Positions 26,414 through 41,000 of a stretch of 42,588 nt of DNA are shown here, piece by piece (within the stretch, counting starts at the first letter, position 1; every line of letters starts with the position of its first letter). This DNA is from Nanobdellota archaeon (GTDB lineage Archaea > Nanobdellota > Nanobdellia > Pacearchaeales > GW2011-AR1): NCBI GenBank assembly GCA_030641715.1, contig DAOWGX010000012.1, positions 1-42,588 of the forward strand. Reading direction: 5' to 3'. Below the pieces are notes generated by a model that ran no database searches, had not been told where the DNA came from, and saw nothing but the letters and a program-made list of their open reading frames with translations. The position numbers were made by a program, and so were the translations under genes.

Positions 26414-26854
26414 TTATTTTTTCAAGTTTTTTATTCTTTCGCTAATTGGGGGATGTGTTCGAGGATCATATTTTACAACCATGTCATCATAATCCTTCTG
26501 CGCTTTTTTTAAAAATGAAATTGTTGGCGCCCTGCCATTCTTCTTTAAAGAATATTCATCCGCAGAAAATTCTTCTTGCCAGTTCGCTTTTTTAAAGCTT
26601 AGAAATCTGAAAATATTGAAAGAACTCTTAATTATTGATAAAAACTTTTTATGATATTCTTCATGATAAAGTATAGCTAATCTTTCTGCTTCATTATATT
26701 TTTCAAAAAAATGATTATTTACAACAGTACCATAAATTGTTGCCCTAGCAGGAGAATCTTTTATGACATAAACATTAAACTTTTTATTGCCATGAGAGAT
26801 TGTCTTTTTCACACATCTTGTGAATATGAATAGATTACGAATACCCTTAACCAT
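26414..26854 (-). CDS. Minimal M48-like zinc metallopeptidase
   Basis: HEEYH (HExxH), downstream EEFSADEY and C-terminal THPPISERIKNL. Confidence 0.78.
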   Translation of the reverse strand: MVKGIRNLFIFTRCVKKTISHGNKKFNVYVIKDSPARATIYGTVVNNHFFEKYNEAERLAILYHEEYHKKFLSIIKSSFNIFRFLSFKKANWQEEFSADEYSLKKNGRAPTISFLKKAQKDYDDMVVKYDPRTHPPISERIKNLKK

Positions 26855-28370
26855 TTATCAACCTCTTCAAAGTTTCCCCAGCAACCTTAAAATCAGCCCT
26901 TCTCTCTGATAACCTCATCACTTGTCCAATCAAAAAATTCAAACTCGCTGTCTTTCCTGACTTATATTCCTCAACCACGTGCGCATTCTCGTCGATAACC
27001 TGCCGACATAAATTCTCAATCGCCGAATCATCAATATTCGAAATCTCTCCCTTGTGTTCTTTCAGCGAAAACGACTTTGGCACAAAATCATTCATAATCT
27101 GCTTTCCTTTTAAAACTGTAATCTCTCCCTTATTCACTTTATCAACTAACTCTGCCACATGACTTGGCCTTATATCTACCTCTGCATCCTCGAGTGTCCT
27201 TTTGTTATAATTCAAGATTCTAGGTAGTTCTATAGTTATCCAAGAAAGATTTTTCTGAAGTTGTCTCAAGGGCTTCATAGCATTCTCTATTCCTTTTTGA
27301 GATTGCCTTATAGGTTCCATTGCCTTATTCATTTCCCCTTGAACTACCCCTATAGGTTTCATTACTTCATCCATTTTCTTTTGAATTATTCTTATAGGTT
27401 TAGTTATTCTATCTGCAAATTCCTCAAAAAACTCAACCAACTCTAGATTCTTCGTTAAAATCTTTGCGTCTTTTTCTCCAACTTTGTATTTTTTTAAAAG
27501 TCTTGTTAGTTTTACTTCAGGCATTTCGGGTAAATCTGCTTTGATTCCATTAACCATTTTTTTATCTATTGTAATTGTGGATAAATCTGGGTCTGGGATG
27601 AATCTGTAATCTGCGGCACCTTCTTTCGACCGCATCTTAATTGTCTTCCCTGATTTTTCGTCGAATGCTAGGGTGTCCCTTGTCTGAACGATTCCTTTCT
27701 GGTGGTTTTCAATTTGCCGAACAATCTCGTATTCTATCGCCTTCCGAATCTTTTCCAATGAATTTAAATTCTTCATTTCTACTCTTTCGCCGTAGGTCGA
27801 GACGTTGACGTCGACTTTGATTCCGGCGTTTTTCCTGACGGCTTTGATATAACTTAATGATAGAAGTAAACTTTTTAGCCATTCGATGACTTGTTCTGCA
27901 TCGCTGAATTCTGGTTCGGTTACAATTTCAATTAAGGGTAGTCCGCTTCGGTTGTAGTTTATTTTCCCCGAGTCTGGGTTCCATTGTGCGGGGTCTTCTT
28001 CGAGATGTAATTCTGTGAGATTAATTCCTTTAAATTTTCCACCGGTTGCGTTTGTCGTCGCGTGCATTCCTGAAATCGTCGTTTGATATCCCTTGGGCAA
28101 GTCTGCCCAGCTGTAATGTTTCCTCTGCCAAATAATATTAGAATAATTAATTTTCGAACCGAAGACCAATGCGATTTGAATCATTTTTTTGATGGCGTCC
28201 GAATTCGGTGCCATCGGTTTTGAGCCGGGTTGTCCTGTGCAAATTGGACAGACTAAGGAGTTTGGTTTGGAGTTTAAAAAGTCGGTTTTGCACATGCAGA
28301 AAAGTTTCTCGTGCGTGTCTAGGTAGCCGTGGATTTCGAGACCGATTTTTACAGGGAATGCGTTTGTCAT
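26847..28370 (-). CDS. gatB: Asp-tRNA(Asn)/Glu-tRNA(Gln) amidotransferase subunit B, with repeat insertion
   Basis: KIGLEIHGYLDTHEKLFC, GSKPMAPNSDAI, RSGLPLIEIVTEPE, FIPDPDL, NFLIGQVMRLS. Confidence 0.95.
   Translation of the reverse strand: MTNAFPVKIGLEIHGYLDTHEKLFCMCKTDFLNSKPNSLVCPICTGQPGSKPMAPNSDAIKKMIQIALVFGSKINYSNIIWQRKHYSWADLPKGYQTTISGMHATTNATGGKFKGINLTELHLEEDPAQWNPDSGKINYNRSGLPLIEIVTEPEFSDAEQVIEWLKSLLLSLSYIKAVRKNAGIKVDVNVSTYGERVEMKNLNSLEKIRKAIEYEIVRQIENHQKGIVQTRDTLAFDEKSGKTIKMRSKEGAADYRFIPDPDLSTITIDKKMVNGIKADLPEMPEVKLTRLLKKYKVGEKDAKILTKNLELVEFFEEFADRITKPIRIIQKKMDEVMKPIGVVQGEMNKAMEPIRQSQKGIENAMKPLRQLQKNLSWITIELPRILNYNKRTLEDAEVDIRPSHVAELVDKVNKGEITVLKGKQIMNDFVPKSFSLKEHKGEISNIDDSAIENLCRQVIDENAHVVEEYKSGKTASLNFLIGQVMRLSERRADFKVAGETLKRLING
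27243..27404 (-). repeat. 42-bp/14-aa tandem repeat x4 inside gatB
   Basis: TKPIRIIQKKMDEV / MKPIGVVQGEMNKA / MEPIRQSQKGIENA / MKPLRQLQKNLS; Pro and Gln exactly 14 residues apart in each unit. Confidence 0.9.
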
Positions 28371-28804: not shown

Positions 28805-30058
28805 ATGAAAACGAAAACTTTCGCTCCGGGTGATAGGGTAGCGTTGCAAACGAAGAGTAAGTTGTGGAAAGGTTATGTTCTTGAGTCACACGATTCGGAA
28901 GTTATTTTGTTGAAGCTGGAATCTGGTTATAATATCGGAATTCGGGAAGGGGAGATTCTTGATGCTAAGGTTTTGGAGAAAGCGAAGCCGAAGGAAAAGA
29001 AGGAAGTTGTTTTGGAGAAAAATACTAAGTTGAAAAATGTCGTGATTATAATTACTGGCGGGACGATTTCGTCGAGGCTTGATCCGAAATCTGGGGGAGT
29101 AATTCCGACAGATGCCGAAGATATTTTAAACATCGCACCTGAAATTAAAGAGATTTGCAATGTCGTAAAAATTGATACACCTTTTATGAAATTCTCCGAG
29201 GATATGGATCCGAAAGATTGGAGGAAATTGGCTGAAACATGTGAGCCTTATCTTAATGACGAATCTGTCGACGGTATAATCATAACGCATGGAACTGATA
29301 CGTTGCATTATACTTCCGTGGCTCTTTCTTTTTTTATCCGAGATTTGAACAAGCCCATCGCGATAACCTACTCTCAGCGTTCGATAGATAGAGCTTCTAC
29401 CGACGCCGCGCTTAATCTGATTTGTTCTGCGGAATACGCGACATCGGATATTGCAGAAATTGCTTTAATTGGACACAAAAATAGCGACGATAAAAGTTGT
29501 ATTGCGATGCCAGCGAAGAGGGTTCGAAAGTTGCACACTTCTCGAAGAGATGCTTTCAAGATTGTTAATGATACCCCCCTCGCAGAGATTACATCGGGCA
29601 AGATTAAAATTTTAAAAACGTTTAATGCTCGCTCGAATAAGAAGCCGAAACTTGATACGAAATTTCAGGAAAAAGTTTCGTTGATAAAGGTTCATCCAGG
29701 GCAAGACCCGTCGATAATTGAGTATTATGAACAGCAAGGGTACAAGGGATTGATTCTTGAAACTACAGGGCTTGGTCAGGTTCCTGGCAAATCCTCCTCG
29801 ACAAACTGGCTTCCAAAAATAAAAAAAGCCATTCAAAATGGGATGGTGATCTGTGCAACTGCTCAAACCATTTATGGTCGATTAAATCCAAATGTGTATT
29901 CTTCCGGACGAGAATTGCAAAAAACAGGCATTATTTTCCTTGAAGATATGTTATCTGAAACCGCACTGATTAAACTTGGTTGGGTTCTTGGACATAAAAA
30001 CTGGAATCCTAAAGAAAAAATGTTGGAGAATGTCTCCAACAGGTTAGATAAAAAATAA
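28805..30058 (+). CDS. gatD: Glu-tRNA(Gln) amidotransferase subunit D
   Basis: N-terminal GatD barrel then IIITGGTISSRLDPKSGGVIPT and HGTDTLHYT asparaginase motifs. Confidence 0.95.
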   Translation: MKTKTFAPGDRVALQTKSKLWKGYVLESHDSEVILLKLESGYNIGIREGEILDAKVLEKAKPKEKKEVVLEKNTKLKNVVIIITGGTISSRLDPKSGGVIPTDAEDILNIAPEIKEICNVVKIDTPFMKFSEDMDPKDWRKLAETCEPYLNDESVDGIIITHGTDTLHYTSVALSFFIRDLNKPIAITYSQRSIDRASTDAALNLICSAEYATSDIAEIALIGHKNSDDKSCIAMPAKRVRKLHTSRRDAFKIVNDTPLAEITSGKIKILKTFNARSNKKPKLDTKFQEKVSLIKVHPGQDPSIIEYYEQQGYKGLILETTGLGQVPGKSSSTNWLPKIKKAIQNGMVICATAQTIYGRLNPNVYSSGRELQKTGIIFLEDMLSETALIKLGWVLGHKNWNPKEKMLENVSNRLDKK

Positions 30059-30507: not shown

Positions 30508-30568
30508 GTAACCTCCTTGTGAGAATTAAGAAGAAAGATTATTTAAAGCTATTGTCTTGAGTATATTT

Positions 30569-31996
30569 ATGGAACACGATTACAAAAAAATCGGGCTTAA
30601 GATTGGATTGGAGATTCATCAGCAACTTAACACGAGGAAGCTTTTTTGCGATTGTCCTTCTATTTTGAGGAATGATGAACCTGAATATACTGTCGAGAGA
30701 ACGTTGAATCCCGTGGTTGGGGAGACTGGAGAAATTGACGTCGCTGCTGCACATGAGAAGATGAAAAATAAAACTTTTATTTATCAGGTTTATGATACTA
30801 ATTGTTTGGTCGAACTCGATGAGTCTCCCCCAGGAAAAATTAATATCGATGCGTTAAAAATCGTGTTGCAAATCGCAGAATTGTTCAAATGCAAGATATT
30901 TCCAATAACTCAAGTAATGAGGAAAACCGTCGTCGATGGGACGAATACTTCGGGATTTCAGAGGACTGTTTTAGTTGCTCACGATGGTTATGTTGAGACA
31001 GGAGAGGGGAAGGTTGGGATTGAGACTATTGCGTTGGAGGAGGACTCGGCGAGGAAGGTTTCAGAGGACGAGAAAACGAAGACGTTTAAGCTGGATAGGT
31101 TAGGGATTCCGCTTGTTGAGATTACGACGAAGCCAGAGATTTATTCGCCGGGGCAGGGGAAGGAAGTTGCTTTGAAAATTGGGGAGGTGTTGCGGGCGTG
31201 TAATGTGAAACGGGGGATTGGGACTATTCGTCAGGATGTTAATATTTCGATTAAGGGAAGTAAACGGGTTGAGATTAAGGGTTTTCAGGATACGAAGATG
31301 ATGGTTAAGACTATTGATACGGAAATTTCGAGGCAGGAAGAATGTGTTGAGAATGGTGAGTGTAAGAATGAGGTTCGGGGTGCGCTTCCCGACGGGAGTT
31401 CGAAATTTCAGAGACCGATGCCGGGGGCTGCGAGAATGTATCCCGAGACTGATGTTCCGCTTTTGAAAATTTCACGAGAGTTGATTAATGAAGTGAAAAA
31501 GAATTTGCCGAAACTTGTTTCGGAACATAAATCTTATTTGAGTGAGTTTGGACTTAATGATGAGTTGGTGAAGTTGATTTTGAAGCAGGGTAAGGTTGAG
31601 GATTTTAAGACGTTGAGTAAGGTGATTGAAAGTCCAGAGTTGATTGCGAAATCGTTGACGCTGTTTCAGAAAGAGATTGCGAGGAAGGAGGGGAAGTCTT
31701 TAATTGAAGTGAATGAGATTTTGAATGCTCATGTATTGGAGGCGATTTTGGAGGAGGTCGGGAAGAAGATTTCGAAGAACGATGTTAGGACTGTGATGCA
31801 GAAGGTTGTTCGAGGGGAGGCTCTCGACGAGGCTATGGAGAAGTCTGATGTTGATTTGAGGGAGGAGGTTGAGAAGTTGGTTCGGGAGAAGCCAGGGTTG
31901 TCGACAGGGGCGTACATGGGGCTGGTTATGGGGAAATTTAAGGGGAAGGTTTCTGGGAAAGAGGTTGCGGATGTTTTGGGAGAGGTTTTGTTTTGA
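30569..31996 (+). CDS. gatE: Glu-tRNA(Gln) amidotransferase subunit E, apparently lacking the GAD insert
   Basis: IGLKIGLEIHQQLNTRKLFCDCPS, GFQRTVLVAHDGYVE, RPMPGAARMYPETDVPLL; ~475 aa. Confidence 0.95.
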   Translation: MEHDYKKIGLKIGLEIHQQLNTRKLFCDCPSILRNDEPEYTVERTLNPVVGETGEIDVAAAHEKMKNKTFIYQVYDTNCLVELDESPPGKINIDALKIVLQIAELFKCKIFPITQVMRKTVVDGTNTSGFQRTVLVAHDGYVETGEGKVGIETIALEEDSARKVSEDEKTKTFKLDRLGIPLVEITTKPEIYSPGQGKEVALKIGEVLRACNVKRGIGTIRQDVNISIKGSKRVEIKGFQDTKMMVKTIDTEISRQEECVENGECKNEVRGALPDGSSKFQRPMPGAARMYPETDVPLLKISRELINEVKKNLPKLVSEHKSYLSEFGLNDELVKLILKQGKVEDFKTLSKVIESPELIAKSLTLFQKEIARKEGKSLIEVNEILNAHVLEAILEEVGKKISKNDVRTVMQKVVRGEALDEAMEKSDVDLREEVEKLVREKPGLSTGAYMGLVMGKFKGKVSGKEVADVLGEVLF

Positions 31997-32037
31997 TTAA
32001 GAAAGCTTAAATAATACGTTTTGTTTTTGAAATAGTT

Positions 32038-32814
32038 ATGGGTGAAAATTATGGTGTGCATACTACTGTTATCCCAAGGTATGGCAAGGCGACGATGGTC
32101 CTTTCTAAATTGGAAGAATTGGCGATATCGTTGCCGTCGAAAATTTCTGAAAAAGTTGAGCAGATAACTGCGTTCCCGGTGGTAATCGCTAGAAAGAATA
32201 TAGATAAACTTAGACATATACGGGATGAGGTTGATTTGATTCTTGTGAAATATCTTACCTCGACTGAGCTGGATAACGAGTATGATTCGCTTTCGTCTGA
32301 GGATTTGAGAGTGTCGGAGAAATGTGTCGTATATTCGCCAACTGCGAAACGACATAAGGGCGAGATGTCTGGTAGTGGGAAATCGTCGGCTTCTTATTAT
32401 TGGCAGATTGATAGGGGTCCGTCGAGAGATAGTTCTCCTGTAAGATTATTATTGCAATCGATAAGTCCTTTTGGGAAAACCTCGCATCATTATCACAAGA
32501 AAACTGTTGAACTGTTTTTGCCTTTGGTCGGAAAGACAATACTGTACTGGCATGATAGGGGTAATAAGGTGTTGCCTCGAAAGGTGCATCGGCTAATGCA
32601 TTCTGTTGTTACGAGGGTTATGCCGAGGACGGGGCATCAGCTTCAGACGCTTGACGAGCCGGCACTAAATGTGTTGGGGATGTGTCCTGGTAATCTGGGT
32701 TTGGAGGATCATATTTATATTTCTGATGAGGGGTTGAAGGTTCTTCAATCTAAAAGCGATAATTTTCTGTTGAACTACATCAAGGATAAAAGAAGTTTTT
32801 CTGAAACGAAGTGA
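32038..32814 (+). CDS. Hypothetical protein with possible cupin-like C-terminal domain
   Basis: SHHYHKKTVELFLPLVGKTILYWHD ... HSVVTRVMPRTGHQLQTLDEPALNVLGM. Confidence 0.5.
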   Translation: MGENYGVHTTVIPRYGKATMVLSKLEELAISLPSKISEKVEQITAFPVVIARKNIDKLRHIRDEVDLILVKYLTSTELDNEYDSLSSEDLRVSEKCVVYSPTAKRHKGEMSGSGKSSASYYWQIDRGPSRDSSPVRLLLQSISPFGKTSHHYHKKTVELFLPLVGKTILYWHDRGNKVLPRKVHRLMHSVVTRVMPRTGHQLQTLDEPALNVLGMCPGNLGLEDHIYISDEGLKVLQSKSDNFLLNYIKDKRSFSETK

Positions 32815-32939
32815 AAGAAAAATTTAGATGGAGAAGTCTGTAAGACTTTGTAATCTTTCATGGCACGTGTGTTTTTTAAATGAAACTATATATTCTAATA
32901 TAGGTATATTTTTAAAATCCAAAATCTTTTTGATAAATT

Positions 32940-33395
32940 ATGGTAAATTTAGATGATAAATTAACAGAATTACGAAATGAAGAAAATAGAATTCTTGGAG
33001 CAATTGATGAAAGAAATAGAAAAAGAAAGATTCAATGTGGTGCGTGTGATGATTTTCATGAAATTGGTAACCTTAAAGCAATCCAAACGCATTGGTACAC
33101 TCCTCCCACGGGATGTACTGAAGGAGACTATTGGAACGACGGAGAATTACAATATGTTTGTCCTGAAACAGGAATTATAAATAGACTATTATTTGATAAT
33201 AATGATGTTCCTTGGAAAGAAAGAAAAGATTTCGACAATAATCCTGAAGAACAATTTAAAAGAAATTATAAAAAATTATTTGAGGAAGTTACAGATAATT
33301 ATGATAGAACAATTCCTGGTAAATGGGTAAATAATTATTATGTGGATAGAAATCGTGAAAAATTTGGACTTGTAGAAAGACGAAAGAGAACTTAA
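32940..33395 (+). CDS. Hypothetical Cys-containing protein
   Basis: 151 aa ORF; CGAC...C...C suggests metal binding. Confidence 0.5.
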   Translation: MVNLDDKLTELRNEENRILGAIDERNRKRKIQCGACDDFHEIGNLKAIQTHWYTPPTGCTEGDYWNDGELQYVCPETGIINRLLFDNNDVPWKERKDFDNNPEEQFKRNYKKLFEEVTDNYDRTIPGKWVNNYYVDRNREKFGLVERRKRT

Positions 33396-33547
33396 GGAAG
33401 TTAGTTTTTTATAATGAAGTGGAATTCTTTGTTTTGAAAAAGTTTAAGTGCGTGTCCGTTCTAAAAATTAAATTCAATTGAAACCGATATTATTGTTATG
33501 AGAGGTTTATTTATGATATCCTTCTAATAAGGATAAAAACAATAATT

Positions 33548-33634
33548 TTATTTTAACATCCCATTAATTCCCCAAGCAATCAAGACCGCGGCGACGGCAG
33601 AAACACAAACAACAACGAACAAGTCGATTCTCAT
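33548..33634 (-). CDS. 28-aa single-TM micropeptide
   Basis: MRIDLFVVVCVSAVAAVLIAWGINGMLK; near-identical C-terminal TM to 34564..34746. Confidence 0.5.
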   Translation of the reverse strand: MRIDLFVVVCVSAVAAVLIAWGINGMLK

Positions 33635-33714
33635 AACATCTTTTATTATCTTGAAGAAATTTGACAAACCAAAGAGTATTTAAAGATTAAAAATGTTATA
33701 CCATTAATATATTC

Positions 33715-33742
33715 CCCGGTATGGTCTTCGGGCAATGCCGGG
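33715..33742 (+). other. Stable UUCG-loop hairpin followed by T-tract
   Basis: CCCGGTATGGTC TTCG GGCAATGCCGGG with one mismatch and G-U pairs, then AGTTTTATTTTT; TATA-like box at 33676. Confidence 0.65.
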
Positions 33743-33753
33743 CAGTTTTATTT

Positions 33754-34278
33754 TTACAATTCTCTAGCTAAATCATTCATGTAAATAAAATCATCGCAAG
33801 TTTTCTTTAATGATGCCGAAGAACTACTCTTGAAATAAGCATTTATAATTTTCTTTCCTAACTTTTGAGCCTTTTTAATTGCAGGAACAAAATCTTCATC
33901 GCCAGAAACAATTATTGCAGTGTCGTATAAATCTTCATAAGCTCCCGAAACTAGGTCAACTGCCAAGTGAACATCGTCGCCTTTTACATCAAAAACATAA
34001 TTTCCGTTTTTTCTTTTATGTTTTCTTAGTTTGCAAAGAACAACATTAAAATCTGGAATTTTTCTTAATTCATTGAAGAACTTTTGTTGTTCCCAGTAAG
34101 TTTTAGGATTTATTTTTATATTTAAGGGGGCATTATAATAAAATGTTGAAATCAGCAGTTTGTTCTTCTTTAACAACTGAAGAAGTTTCTGAAAATCTAT
34201 CCTTTCAATTTTTAGATTCTTTAAACTATAATATAAATTACTTCCATCAATAAAAATAGCAACTCTTTCTTTTGTCAT
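33754..34278 (-). CDS. NYN-domain (LabA/DUF88-like) predicted RNase
   Basis: RVAIFIDGSNLYYSLK ... KGDDVHLAVDLVSGAYEDLYDTAIIVSGDEDFVPAIKKAQKLGKKI. Confidence 0.88.
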   Translation of the reverse strand: MTKERVAIFIDGSNLYYSLKNLKIERIDFQKLLQLLKKNKLLISTFYYNAPLNIKINPKTYWEQQKFFNELRKIPDFNVVLCKLRKHKRKNGNYVFDVKGDDVHLAVDLVSGAYEDLYDTAIIVSGDEDFVPAIKKAQKLGKKIINAYFKSSSSASLKKTCDDFIYMNDLAREL

Positions 34279-34563
34279 ATGGTTAGATACAGCAAGAGAT
34301 TATAAGTTTTGTGTTTAGAAATTTTCATTTTAAACAATAATTTTATACCCTCGCACCTTCTTCATTCATTATATAAACACTTTCTATATTCTCTACTATG
34401 CTGTAAGACCTTCATCCTCTCCAATTATATTGGTCATCCTCTATCCTCTTGCATTATACTGCACTTCCAGTTCCATCCATAATCTATATGAAACTCATAT
34501 CTATTTAAATGTTCTCAATTCAAACTATCTTCCCTGAACATTTAAGATAGTAAAAGTTTAAAA

Positions 34564-34746
34564 TTAATTAAACATCCCATTAATTCCCCAAGCAATCAAA
34601 ACAGCGGCGACGGCAGAAACACAAGTTACGACGGGCAAACTACTCGAACCGCAAACGGCACCCAAGGCACCTCCCGAGGCTCCCGCGATTCCCGCAACTA
34701 AAAGTCTTTTGTTTTCTTCGTTCATGATTGATTGAGATGAAGACAC
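34564..34746 (-). CDS. 60-aa small membrane protein
   Basis: MSSSQSIMNEENKRLLVAGIAGASGGALGAVCGSSSLPVVTCVSAVAAVLIAWGINGMFN. Confidence 0.55.
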   Translation of the reverse strand: MSSSQSIMNEENKRLLVAGIAGASGGALGAVCGSSSLPVVTCVSAVAAVLIAWGINGMFN

Positions 34747-34795
34747 TATAAAAACTTAAGCACAATTTTAAAAACCCTTGATGGTATATTTGGAT

Positions 34796-36175
34796 ATGGA
34801 ACGAACGATGATTGAGGAGCTTTCTGCTCTCGAAGGAAAGGAGGTCGAGATATCTGGATGGGTTGATACGATTAGGGAACATGGGAAACTTATATTTTTG
34901 GAAGTTAGGGACGTGACGGGGGCGGTTCAGACGATTGTTACGGCGAAGGATGGAGGGAATTTTGAGATTGCGAAGTCGTTGACGAAGGAGTCTTGTGTTC
35001 GGATTGTGGGGGAGGTTAGTTCGAGGCCGAAGGGAACGGAGAATAATGATTCGCCTGCGGGGAATGTTGAGGTGAAAATTCAGGAGATTGAGGTTTATAA
35101 TAAATGTTCTGCGTTGCCTTTTGATATTGATAACGACGAGGTTGGCGAGGATATTCGGTTGAAGTATCGGTATTTGGATTTGAGGAGACAGGGGATGCAG
35201 AGGAATTTGATTTTGAGGAGTAAGGTTGTGAGGGTGATTCGGGACACGTTGTATGGGGAGGGATTTAATGAGTTCGAGACTCCGATGCTTGCGAAGTCGA
35301 CGCCGGAAGGGGCGAGGGATTATGTGGTTCCGTCGAGGACGCAACCGGGGAAGTTTTTCGCACTTCCACAGTCTCCGCAATTGTTTAAACAGCTTTTGAT
35401 GGTGGCAGGGTTTGAGAAATATTTTCAGATTGCGAGGTGTATGCGGGACGAGGATCTTCGTTCGGATAGGCAACCGGAGTTTACGCAGTTGGATGTTGAG
35501 ATGTCTTTTGTTAGTCAGGAGGAGATCTTTAAGGTTGTCGAAGGTGTTATGAAAAATGTTTTCAAGGAAGTATTCAATAAGAATCTCAAAACTCCTTTTG
35601 GGAAAATGTCTTATGAGGAATCGATTAAAAAATACAAGTCCGATAAACCGGATTTGAGAGAAGAAACGAAAGAGGAATTTGCTTTCACGTGGATTACTGA
35701 TTTCCCGTTGTTAGAATATTCGAAAGATGAAGATAGATACATCGCATGTCACCATCCATTTTGTATGCCTAAAAATATTGAGGATTTAGAAAAGAATCCT
35801 GAGAAAACGGTTGCACAATCATTTGATTTGGTGTTGAATGGTATAGAGATATTAAGCGGGAGTATTAGGATTCATAAATCTGATATTCAGAAGAAGGTGT
35901 TTGATTTATTGAAGATTTCTGATAAAGAGCAAGAAGAAAAATTTGGGTTTTTATTGGACGCATTAAAATTCGGCGCTCCTCCTCACGGCGGTATTGCAAT
36001 CGGGTTAGACAGATTAATTCAGATTCTGACTGGTGCGGAATCGATAAGGGAAGTGATTCCATTTCCGAAGAATAAGGAAGCGAAGGATTTGATGGTCGAC
36101 GCGCCGAGTTCGGTTTCGGATCGGCAGTTGAAGGATGTTTGTATTAGGTTGGATTTAGGGAAGAAGGGGAAGTAG
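34796..36175 (+). CDS. aspS: Aspartyl-tRNA synthetase, bacterial-type, GAD-less, predicted non-discriminating
   Basis: STPEGARDYVVPSRTQPGKFFALPQSPQLFKQLLMVAGFEKYFQIARCMRDEDLRSDRQPEFTQLDVEMSF; GLDRLIQILTGAESIREVIPFPK. Confidence 0.95.
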   Translation: MERTMIEELSALEGKEVEISGWVDTIREHGKLIFLEVRDVTGAVQTIVTAKDGGNFEIAKSLTKESCVRIVGEVSSRPKGTENNDSPAGNVEVKIQEIEVYNKCSALPFDIDNDEVGEDIRLKYRYLDLRRQGMQRNLILRSKVVRVIRDTLYGEGFNEFETPMLAKSTPEGARDYVVPSRTQPGKFFALPQSPQLFKQLLMVAGFEKYFQIARCMRDEDLRSDRQPEFTQLDVEMSFVSQEEIFKVVEGVMKNVFKEVFNKNLKTPFGKMSYEESIKKYKSDKPDLREETKEEFAFTWITDFPLLEYSKDEDRYIACHHPFCMPKNIEDLEKNPEKTVAQSFDLVLNGIEILSGSIRIHKSDIQKKVFDLLKISDKEQEEKFGFLLDALKFGAPPHGGIAIGLDRLIQILTGAESIREVIPFPKNKEAKDLMVDAPSSVSDRQLKDVCIRLDLGKKGK

Positions 36176-37517: not shown

Positions 37518-38066
37518 ATGAAAAGAGTGGCTGTTTTTATTGATGGTAATAACTTTTATTTTGGATTGAGGAAACTTTATGGAAAAAATAAAAGTTTGAA
37601 GGATTTTGATTTTCAAAGTTTTGCTAACTTTCTCGCAGGAGAAGGAAAAGTGGTTGGAATCTGTTATTATAATGCTCAATTAGATAGAGAGTTTAATTCT
37701 AAGAAATTCAAAAGTCAAAAGGAATTTTTTGCTAAACTCAAATCAATTCCTAACTTTAATTTAGTCTTGTGTAAATTATTGAAAAGAAATATAACTGGAA
37801 CAAATAGATATTATTATATAATTAAAGAGGATGATATTCACATGGCTGTTGATATGGTAGATGGTTCAGCAGATGATACTTTTGATACGGCAGTTTTGGT
37901 TTCTGGAGATGGAGATTTTGTTCCCGCTGTTCGTTCTGTTCAGAGAAGAAATAAGAAAATTCAAAATGTTTATTTTAAGGACAGTTCGTCAAGAAGTTTA
38001 AAGAATCATTGTGATAAATCTCTCGAATTAACAAAAGAAATTCTAAATGACTTTTTTAAGAATTAA
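37518..38066 (+). CDS. NYN-domain predicted RNase, paralogue of 33754..34278
   Basis: KRVAVFIDGNNFYFGLRK ... EDDIHMAVDMVDGSADDTFDTAVLVSGDGDFVPAVRSVQRRNKKI. Confidence 0.88.
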   Translation: MKRVAVFIDGNNFYFGLRKLYGKNKSLKDFDFQSFANFLAGEGKVVGICYYNAQLDREFNSKKFKSQKEFFAKLKSIPNFNLVLCKLLKRNITGTNRYYYIIKEDDIHMAVDMVDGSADDTFDTAVLVSGDGDFVPAVRSVQRRNKKIQNVYFKDSSSRSLKNHCDKSLELTKEILNDFFKN

Positions 38067-38562: not shown

Positions 38563-38829
38563 ATGGTGGAAAGTTTTACGTGGCATGAGGTTGGCGAGGA
38601 AGAGAAGGAAGAGATTCGAAAGGATGCGAAGAGACTTTTGAATGAGTTCGCGTCGAAGTTGTCTAAGGTCGGGGCGTCGGAAGGGCATTTTGAGAATGGG
38701 GATGGATTTCGGGAAGAGGGTGATGGCTGGGATACGGATTCGGAGTTTCGGGACTTGATGTTTTTGAATGCTCCTTTTGTCGAGGGTGATTTTGTTGTGG
38801 CGGAGAAGGGGAGGTGGAAAAGTGGATAA
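38563..38829 (+). CDS. gatC: Probable amidotransferase subunit C
   Basis: Small acidic helical protein upstream of gatA; FREEGDGWDTDSEFRDLMFLNAPFVEGDFVVAEKGRW resembles the GatC tail. Confidence 0.65.
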   Translation: MVESFTWHEVGEEEKEEIRKDAKRLLNEFASKLSKVGASEGHFENGDGFREEGDGWDTDSEFRDLMFLNAPFVEGDFVVAEKGRWKSG

Positions 38830-38830
38830 T

Positions 38831-39679
38831 ATGATTATACCTGATATGGAAAAATTAGAAAGTTTAAAAGGAAAAATAAAATTGCAGGGATATAATAATC
38901 TCCATGTAATCTCTGATTTTGACAGAACCTTGACTTATGCGTACCAGCAAGACGGTAAAAAAATACCTTCGATAATATCTATATTAAGGGACAATGATTA
39001 TCTTTCAGAGGAATATTCAGCCGAGGCAAAATCATTGTTTAGTAAATATCACGCAATAGAAATAAGTAAGGATGTGTCAATGGGGGAGAAGAAGGAGTCC
39101 ATGAAGGAATGGTGGACTATGCATAATCGTTTATTAATTAAATCGGGTTTGCACAAAAAAGATTTGGAGAGAATCGTTGAAAGTGGGATTGTAAGATTGA
39201 GAGAAGGTGCGAAGGAGTTGTTTAATTATCTTTATGAAAAAGAAATCCCATTGATAATTTTATCGTCGAGCGGGGTTGGAGATGCAATTTCTAAGGTATT
39301 GGAGAAGGAAGGGATTTTATATGATAATATATCTATTATTACTAATAAATTTGAATGGGATAAAAATGGTGTGGCGGTAAAATCAATAGAGCCTGTAATT
39401 CATTGTATGAATAAAGATGAAACAATACTTTCTGAGTTTCCAGAAATTTATGGAGAAATAAAAGACCGAAAGAATGTTATTTTATTGGGCGATGGAATTG
39501 GAGATTTGGGAATGATAACTGGCTTTGAATATGACAATTTGATTAAGGTTGGATTTTTGAATCCTGGGGAAGAACAGAATCAAAAAGAATATGAGCAAAA
39601 TTTCGATATGATAATCACTAACGATTCTGATATTCACCCAGTAAATAAATTAATTGGAGAACTTTCGAATGACTCTTAA
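38831..39679 (+). CDS. NT5C3/UMPH-1-like pyrimidine 5'-nucleotidase (HAD superfamily)
   Basis: ISDFDRTLT, MKEWWTMHNRLLIKSGL, LREGAKELFNYLYEKEIPLIILSSSGVGDAI, NVILLGDGIGDLGM. Confidence 0.8.
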   Translation: MIIPDMEKLESLKGKIKLQGYNNLHVISDFDRTLTYAYQQDGKKIPSIISILRDNDYLSEEYSAEAKSLFSKYHAIEISKDVSMGEKKESMKEWWTMHNRLLIKSGLHKKDLERIVESGIVRLREGAKELFNYLYEKEIPLIILSSSGVGDAISKVLEKEGILYDNISIITNKFEWDKNGVAVKSIEPVIHCMNKDETILSEFPEIYGEIKDRKNVILLGDGIGDLGMITGFEYDNLIKVGFLNPGEEQNQKEYEQNFDMIITNDSDIHPVNKLIGELSNDS

Positions 39680-41000
39680 ACATAAACTCAAACAACTAAA
39701 GTTAGAGAAACTAACCGCCGTAAAAAATGTCATGGCATTTTCGAAAAAGATAGCGACGCCAGAGACGAAAGATTTGAATATTTTTTTGAACTTAAATGAA
39801 AACGCAATTGAGCAGGCAAAAGCTATCGATAAAAGAATCAAAGATGGAACGGCTGGGAAATTAGCAGGGCTTTGTTTCGCGGTGAAATCGAATATATCGG
39901 TGAAGGGGTTGGAAACGAATTGTGGTTCCAAGGTTCTTGAGGGTTACGTTTCATCTTATAATGCTACAGTAATCAATAAACTTCTTGGGGAAGACGCGAT
40001 ACTTTTGGGGATGGTGAATATGGATGAGTTTGCTTGTGGGGCTTCGGGGGAAACGTCTGCTTTTGGTCCGACGAAAAATCCTCGTAATGTTGAATTGATT
40101 CCCGGAGGTTCATCGTCGGGTTCGTCGTCGGCGGTTGCGGCGGAGCTTTGTGACTTTTCGTTGGGTTCTGATACGGGAGGTTCAATTCGGAATCCTGCAT
40201 CGCATTGTGGGGTAACTGGATTAAAGCCAACTTATGGTGCTGTATCGCGTTATGGGTTGATAGATATGACGATGTCTTTTGATTGTATTGGACCTCTTAC
40301 GAATTCTGCGAAAGATGCGAAGTTGATTTTTAATGTGATTAGGGGGCAGGATAATTTTGACCAGACTACTCGGGAGGCTACTGAAGAAGAACCGTCTAAA
40401 AAGGGAGTGATTGGATTGGTAGATGTCCAGAGGTTTTGTGGTAAGGAAATTGCGGAATTAATTGAACTGAAAACGAAGGAGGTTGCGGAAAAAAATAATT
40501 GGAAAATTAAAAAGATAAATCTGCCTTTGGATATTATGATTCAGACTTATTATATAATTGTTTATACGGAGTTTTTTTCAGCGACGAGGAAATTCGATGG
40601 GAGAAGGTTTGGAAAAAAGATTGAAGAGGTTGCGGGTCCAGAGGTTGTTCGAAGGATTGTTGGAGGTTCGGAGATTACGAAGGCTGAACACGAGGGGAAA
40701 TATTACAGGGAGGCTTTGAAGGCAAGGAATTTTATTAAGGGAGAGTTCGAAAAGATTTTCGATGGGGTTGATGCTGTTATTCTTCCGACGGTTCCTCGAA
40801 CGCCTCACAAGGTTGGAAAGAAAATCTCGATTGAAGATATGTACGCATATGATGTTTTCACGACGCCAGCTTCGATTGCAGGGCTTCCAGCTATTTCGGT
40901 TCCTGTAGGAAAAGTTGAGGGTAAGGATGTCGGACTTCAAATTTTGGCACCGCATTTTCAAGAAGAATTAATTTTTAAACTGGCGAAAAGTTTTGAATAA
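39669..41000 (+). CDS. gatA: Asp-tRNA(Asn)/Glu-tRNA(Gln) amidotransferase subunit A
   Basis: Amidase signature: GLCFAVKSNISVKG, LIPGGSSSGSSSAVAAELCDFSLGSDTGGSIRNPASHCGVTGLKPTYG. Confidence 0.96.
   Translation: MTLKHKLKQLKLEKLTAVKNVMAFSKKIATPETKDLNIFLNLNENAIEQAKAIDKRIKDGTAGKLAGLCFAVKSNISVKGLETNCGSKVLEGYVSSYNATVINKLLGEDAILLGMVNMDEFACGASGETSAFGPTKNPRNVELIPGGSSSGSSSAVAAELCDFSLGSDTGGSIRNPASHCGVTGLKPTYGAVSRYGLIDMTMSFDCIGPLTNSAKDAKLIFNVIRGQDNFDQTTREATEEEPSKKGVIGLVDVQRFCGKEIAELIELKTKEVAEKNNWKIKKINLPLDIMIQTYYIIVYTEFFSATRKFDGRRFGKKIEEVAGPEVVRRIVGGSEITKAEHEGKYYREALKARNFIKGEFEKIFDGVDAVILPTVPRTPHKVGKKISIEDMYAYDVFTTPASIAGLPAISVPVGKVEGKDVGLQILAPHFQEELIFKLAKSFE

Follow-up and report, generated by a model that had tools for sequence, protein, structure and literature searches.

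The window, the 42,588-nucleotide contig DAOWGX010000012.1 of a Nanobdellota archaeon of the order Pacearchaeales (assembly GCA_030641715.1), encodes a Glu-tRNA(Gln) amidotransferase subunit E (GatE) and a bacterial-type aspartyl-tRNA synthetase (AspRS) that both lack the GAD domain, an insert present in solved homologs of each. The absence is real but not exceptional, being a recurrent and unlinked loss of a dispensable insert. On the explanation that we consider quite probable, the pair are unremarkable and probably functional enzymes serving the indirect Gln/Asn pathways of a Pacearchaeota-type DPANN archaeon, each without the dispensable GAD for independent historical reasons. The source genome, of which the window is contig 14, measures 731 kb and is 84% complete, a figure with no bearing on gatE and aspS, both of which are intact. 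An earlier note on this DNA had proposed that GAD is missing at the homologous place of both enzymes and that the two losses are connected; split alignments and the absence of Pfam GAD (PF02938) from both proteins bear out the first proposal, and the second is weighed below.

The gatE gene is a single uninterrupted frame; a start at the TTG farther upstream, at 30557, would lengthen the product from 475 to 479 amino acids. The protein exceeds the cut-offs of two GatE equivalog models (499.7 bits, cut-off 456; 446.2 bits, cut-off 319.55). In HMMER alignments, its match to GatE of Methanothermobacter thermautotrophicus and Pyrococcus abyssi breaks exactly at the GAD insert of these 619- and 633-residue chains. 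PF02938 was found neither in GatE nor in AspRS at E≤1, nor anywhere in the whole genome at E≤10, at which 14 of 14 control genomes were positive; it was likewise absent from the aligned rows of relatives (0/39 for GatE and 0/42 for AspRS). The AlphaFold (AF2) model of GatE is confident (predicted local distance difference test [pLDDT], 90; predicted template modeling score [pTM], 0.81), includes the C-terminal tail, and finds GatE chains 1zq1 and 2d6f as its best PDB matches with Foldseek. The protein shares with the M. thermautotrophicus (2D6F) and P. abyssi (1ZQ1) enzymes the GatB_N catalytic domain, the catalytic-core motifs, the C-terminal helical tail, and a GatD encoded upstream, and differs from them in that the GAD insert is gone (475 versus 619–633 amino acids). 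Of the 619- and 633-residue chains, the deposited structures resolve just 485 to 522 and 508 residues, respectively, and the alignment spans 501 to 504 columns. This partial resolution may reflect a GAD that is disordered in the crystals.

In size and architecture the window protein also resembles GatB, which is natively GAD-free, and Foldseek returned strong matches to GatB chains. We give practically no credence to the idea that it is a GatB and rejected it, as the GatB model scores 153 bits, below its cut-off of 314.8, the GatE equivalogs score above theirs, gatD precedes the gene, the window has a gatB of its own elsewhere (Table 1), and the best structural matches are GatE.

The AspRS open frame runs from a TTG at 34778 to 36175 on the forward strand (465 amino acids), with the ATG at 34796 as the likely start. 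It scores above the cut-offs of two bacterial AspRS models (TIGR00459, 614.1 bits, cut-off 373.85; second model, 669.5 bits, cut-off 443) and below that of the archaeal model aspS_nondisc (228.4 bits, cut-off 368.4). The match to Pseudomonas aeruginosa AspRS (4wj3) splits at query residues 294 to 297, opposite chain residues ~298 to 432. The AF2 model (pLDDT, 90; pTM, 0.87) has this nondiscriminating AspRS (ND-AspRS) as its best PDB match, and the alignment takes 591 columns for a 465-residue query, which indicates that the target holds an extra domain. Like the enzymes of P. aeruginosa (4WJ3), Thermus thermophilus (1EFW), and Escherichia coli (1C0A), with which it shares 35 to 41% identity in structural alignment, the window protein has an oligonucleotide/oligosaccharide-binding-fold anticodon domain, a class II core, and the bacterial C-terminal extension, but it has a 10-residue linker in place of GAD and 459 to 465 rather than ~590 amino acids. 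It is 93% identical to AspRS of Candidatus Pacearchaeota archaeon RS_5_10 (L155). The window AspRS is a variant of the bacterial type rather than the canonical form; since GAD is missing from this type in many Patescibacteria and Omnitrophota too, the fault lies with GAD as a criterion, not with the membership of the protein.

An artifact (misassembly, frameshift, or pseudogene formation) could in principle have shortened the two proteins, and all that speaks for it is that genomes of this kind are probably assembled from metagenomes. Both frames are open and uninterrupted, the same junctions recur in dozens of independent genomes, active-site columns are conserved, and both models are confident. 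These observations refute truncation of either gene, to which we assign next to no probability.

We surveyed GatE across the order and the phylum. Of the 132 order genomes, 128 gave a GatE match, almost always contiguous and in frames of ~465 to 530 amino acids that lack GAD. In the phylum draw, GatE was present in 263 of 279 genomes and lacked the insert in at least 114 of the 263, a number hand-counted from tables as ~37 order members, 73 of another 80 genomes searched in the class, and four more. The insert is therefore not a defining feature of GatE. The earlier note had held that its idea would fail if most archaeal GatE homologs also lacked GAD, and the proportion found comes close to that. 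A maximum-likelihood tree recovers the whole order as one clade (Shimodaira–Hasegawa-like approximate likelihood ratio test [SH-aLRT] support, 98) and requires at least five changes of GAD state over the phylum sample. The common ancestor of the order already had a GatE without GAD, the insert having been lost before the order diversified.

G363 and G297, two genomes from the same family as the window, carry a GatE with the GAD insert that nests inside the GAD-less clade; Pfam GAD scores 42.5 bits in one and 22.7 bits, under its cut-off of 23.4, in the other. The N-terminal and tail parts of these proteins are at best 69 to 71% and 48 to 51% identical to GatE of their own family and at most 61% and 29% identical to GAD-bearing GatE, and their GAD segment is closest to that of GatE from other families (53–55% to L244 and 48% to L262). 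We rejected acquisition of the whole C-terminal half from a GAD-bearing donor, as the GAD segment alone is foreign-like. GatE of these two genomes seems to have regained GAD within a clade that otherwise lacks it, a mildly new observation; both reinsertion by recombination and retention amid many surrounding losses are possible. One might go further and regard GAD as a removable and reinsertable module that was lost many times from GatE and, in bacteria and archaea with small genomes, from AspRS, that by its loss tuned the lifetime of the synthetase–tRNA–amidotransferase complex, and that recombination with a foreign GatE restored in frame in G363 and G297. We think this extended account improbable.

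Bacterial-type AspRS is present in 29 of the 132 order genomes, in open frames of 457 to 511 amino acids, and the linker measures 9 to 12 residues in all 29; the remainder have archaeal-type AspRS. The latter resembles the window protein in its locus downstream of gatE, its similar length, and its native lack of GAD, but the two are only ~30 to 36% identical. On contigs that carry both genes, aspS follows gatE on the same strand at a distance of no more than 6 kb in 21 of 22 cases for the bacterial type and in 65 of 73 for the archaeal type, and no genome in the order survey lists both. The simplest reading is that a bacterial-type xenolog replaced the archaeal AspRS in place, in the slot downstream of gatE.

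To find GAD-less AspRS elsewhere, genomic DNA was scanned for (S)DKPDLR followed by W(V/I)x(D/N)FP across a linker of at most ~24 residues, a pattern that GAD-bearing genes cannot satisfy; the scan covers GAT-AAR starts only, and its counts are lower bounds. GAD-less bacterial-type AspRS was recovered from at least 114 genome contigs, mainly of Patescibacteria and Omnitrophota, with some from Pacearchaeota and Woesearchaeota and one from Diapherotrites. Translation confirmed the short junction in 83 of these loci. GAD itself was detected in 40 of 145 Patescibacteria genomes and 52 of 78 Omnitrophota genomes. The GAD-less enzymes of these two phyla have the architecture of the window AspRS and a very similar junction (DKPDLRKDKNDPNELAFCWVVDFP), but they fall in separate clades. 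In a 78-row AspRS tree with E. coli as outgroup, the archaeal GAD-less sequences form separate groups: the window clade, a clade inside Patescibacteria (SH-aLRT, 96) beside Doudnabacteria and Gottesmanbacteria types, and a small clade adjoining GAD-bearing DPANN AspRS. Approximately unbiased (AU) tests rejected a single clade of all GAD-less rows (p-AU 3.8e-6) and a single clade of the archaeal GAD-less rows (p = 0.0056), and the GAD state changes at least seven times on the tree. Literature searches turned up no description of either a bacterial-type AspRS or a GatE without GAD, although such a negative does not prove that none exists. Some frames in the survey are unusually long: the GAD-bearing AspRS L001, L002, and L005 have 749 to 751 amino acids, ~150 above the usual length, with a possible extra C-terminal domain, and the GAD-less Patescibacteria frames L120, L139, and L153 have 639 to 707 amino acids versus the usual 460 to 500.

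The idea of a linked loss, in which both enzymes shed GAD through a change of tRNA handling in this lineage, draws on the absence of the same homologous module from homologous places of two proteins in one genome, and on all 29 bacterial-type AspRS in the order with GAD-less GatE being GAD-less too. However, all four combinations of GAD states occur. Both proteins are GAD-less in the window genome; G363 and G297 pair a GAD-bearing GatE with a GAD-less AspRS; 40 of 73 class genomes (a count that merges two tables by hand) have a GAD-less GatE and a GAD elsewhere in the genome, seen directly as AspRS in G174 (L001) and G084 (L003); and genomes such as G081, in which one of two GAD matches falls within the GatE frame, have it in both. 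Most order members with GAD-less GatE carry the archaeal AspRS, which is GAD-free anyway, and AspRS without GAD is frequent among bacteria, in which the archaea-specific GatDE (PMC9499178) plays no part. The GatE loss precedes the radiation of the order, whereas the bacterial AspRS type is a minority within it, occupies the archaeal AspRS slot, and in its GAD-less form is abundant in bacteria. We conclude that the losses in the two enzymes are not linked.

GatDE is reported to read the D-loop and the A1:U72 pair of tRNA-Gln (PMC9499178) by means of its tail domain (PMC4810234). Both tRNA-Gln species of the genome, UUG and CUG, keep A1:U72 and A73. We therefore set aside a changed tRNA-Gln identity, and we judge a linked loss through altered tRNA handling very unlikely. 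What stands of the parallel loss is that both are derived losses, recurrent in each family, rather than one linked event in one lineage.

At an anticodon-domain position, the window AspRS (REHGK) has the His of P. aeruginosa ND-AspRS (RDHGG), where the E. coli and T. thermophilus enzymes have Leu, a difference that we take to separate nondiscriminating from discriminating bacterial AspRS. The only class IIb match in the genome other than AspRS reads as LysRS, and no AsnRS was found in the 84% recovered. With GatB and a probable GatA encoded and no AsnRS found, the AspRS is probably nondiscriminating, as its His signature also suggests. Seven GAD-less AspRS of the order (L051–L053 and L055–L058) have Leu, Met, or Phe at this position, and specificity may vary within one family.

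The insertion domain of AspRS is reported to assist in placing tRNA at the catalytic site (PMC4237437). The GAD-free archaeal Asn-transamidosome is said to release its product, Asn-tRNA(Asn), more slowly (PMC9499178, citing Suzuki et al. 2015). GAD loss in AspRS may thus have a mild functional consequence. An adaptive loss confined to AspRS would build on the premise that, owing to GAD, the bacterial transamidosome lets Asn-tRNA(Asn) go early; a GAD-less ND-AspRS would then suit GatCAB better by forming a longer-lived, archaeal-style complex. The slower archaeal release, the His signature, and the finding of GatB and GatA but not AsnRS are in keeping with this proposal. On the other side, GAD-less AspRS is the rule in many bacteria, where the argument from an archaeal partner does not apply, DPANN relatives retain GAD in bacterial-type AspRS, and the His is missing from several of the order's own GAD-less enzymes. 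We regard adaptive loss as unlikely.

We therefore favor independent loss of a dispensable insert from two working enzymes. GatE, with its catalytic domain and C-terminal helical tail retained, would act with GatD to convert Glu-tRNA(Gln) to Gln-tRNA(Gln), its GAD insert having been lost before the order radiated. A bacterial-type aspS would have taken over the archaeal AspRS slot beside gatE, and within this AspRS type GAD-less forms arose several times, in Patescibacteria, Omnitrophota, and DPANN archaea. GAD would then be a dispensable insert removed repeatedly from both families, mostly in reduced genomes; the spread of GAD-less AspRS through many unrelated small genomes leads us to place dispensability first. 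The missing domain, the confident models, the distribution and decoupling of the GAD states, the polyphyly of GAD-less AspRS, and the gene order are shown directly; the catalytic function of both enzymes, the nondiscriminating specificity, and the proposed cause, removal of a dispensable module as genomes shrank, are inferred, and the loss may have been neutral or selected. Several points weigh against this account. GatC was not located in the 84%-complete genome, which also bounds the AsnRS result. The trees are quick searches with SH-aLRT support only. The 18 to 23 archaeal members of the window AspRS clade form one clade (SH-aLRT, 98–99); since they are monophyletic, their GAD may have been lost after transfer into archaea as well as before it.

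The GAD insertion has been used as a mark separating bacterial-type from archaeal-type AspRS (PMC4206432). That rule fails across Patescibacteria, in part of Omnitrophota, and in several DPANN archaea, which is mildly new, and annotation and evolutionary arguments resting on the mark need care. The novelty lies mainly in this breadth: GAD is no test for bacterial-type AspRS, and a GatE lineage is not made exceptional by lacking it. Natural pairs of GAD-less and GAD-bearing enzymes, including neighbors in one archaeal family, offer clean comparisons for the role of GAD in tRNA positioning and transamidosome release, addressed so far in few model enzymes.

Table 1. Genes and junctions of the window, and GAD-bearing gatE genes of two relatives.
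Feature	Position	Strand	Evidence
gatB of GatCAB, second amidotransferase	26847-28370	-	TIGR00133, 408.8 bits, above cut-off
gatD, partner subunit of GatE	28805-30058	+	GatD equivalogs, 433.5/416.1 bits, above cut-off; GatD_N, Asparaginase, and Asparaginase_C domains
gatE without GAD domain, Glu-tRNA(Gln) amidotransferase subunit E, 475 aa	30569-31996	+	GatE equivalogs above cut-off
GatE junction EECVENGECK in place of GAD insert of ~110-130 aa	31337-31366	+	Split match to 2d6f_C/1zq1_C; relatives share short junction
aspS, bacterial-type aspartyl-tRNA synthetase without GAD, 459 aa	34796-36175	+	TIGR00459 above cut-off
AspRS junction SDKPDLR-EETKEEFAFT-WITDFP, 10-residue linker at usual GAD site	35660-35689	+	Split match to 4wj3_M
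gatA-like amidase, probable GatA of GatCAB	39654-41000	+	TIGR00132 gatA best NCBIfam model; PF01425
GAD-bearing gatE in otherwise GAD-less clade	L069:2729-4585	-	
GAD-bearing gatE in otherwise GAD-less clade	L070:6190-8022	-	

The gatD, gatE, and aspS genes share the forward strand, preceded by gatB on the reverse strand and followed by the probable gatA on the forward strand; the gatA-like protein scores 457.1 bits against TIGR00132, under the cut-off of 481.1. Residues ~335 to 385 of GatB form an amphipathic, repeat-like stretch (KPIRIIQKKMDEVMKPIGVVQGEMNKAMEPIRQSQKGIENAMKPLRQLQKNL), around which GatB models match in two pieces; a DNA repeat search of this region detected none. Between gatE and aspS, a 258-amino acid protein (32038-32814, forward strand) has no significant Pfam or NCBIfam match. 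Two NYN-domain proteins lie on either side of aspS on opposite strands (33754-34278, reverse; 37518-38066, forward). Directly before gatA (38768-39679, forward strand) lies a member of the UMPH-1 pyrimidine 5′-nucleotidase family/HAD-IE hydrolases; UMPH-1 is a mostly eukaryotic family.

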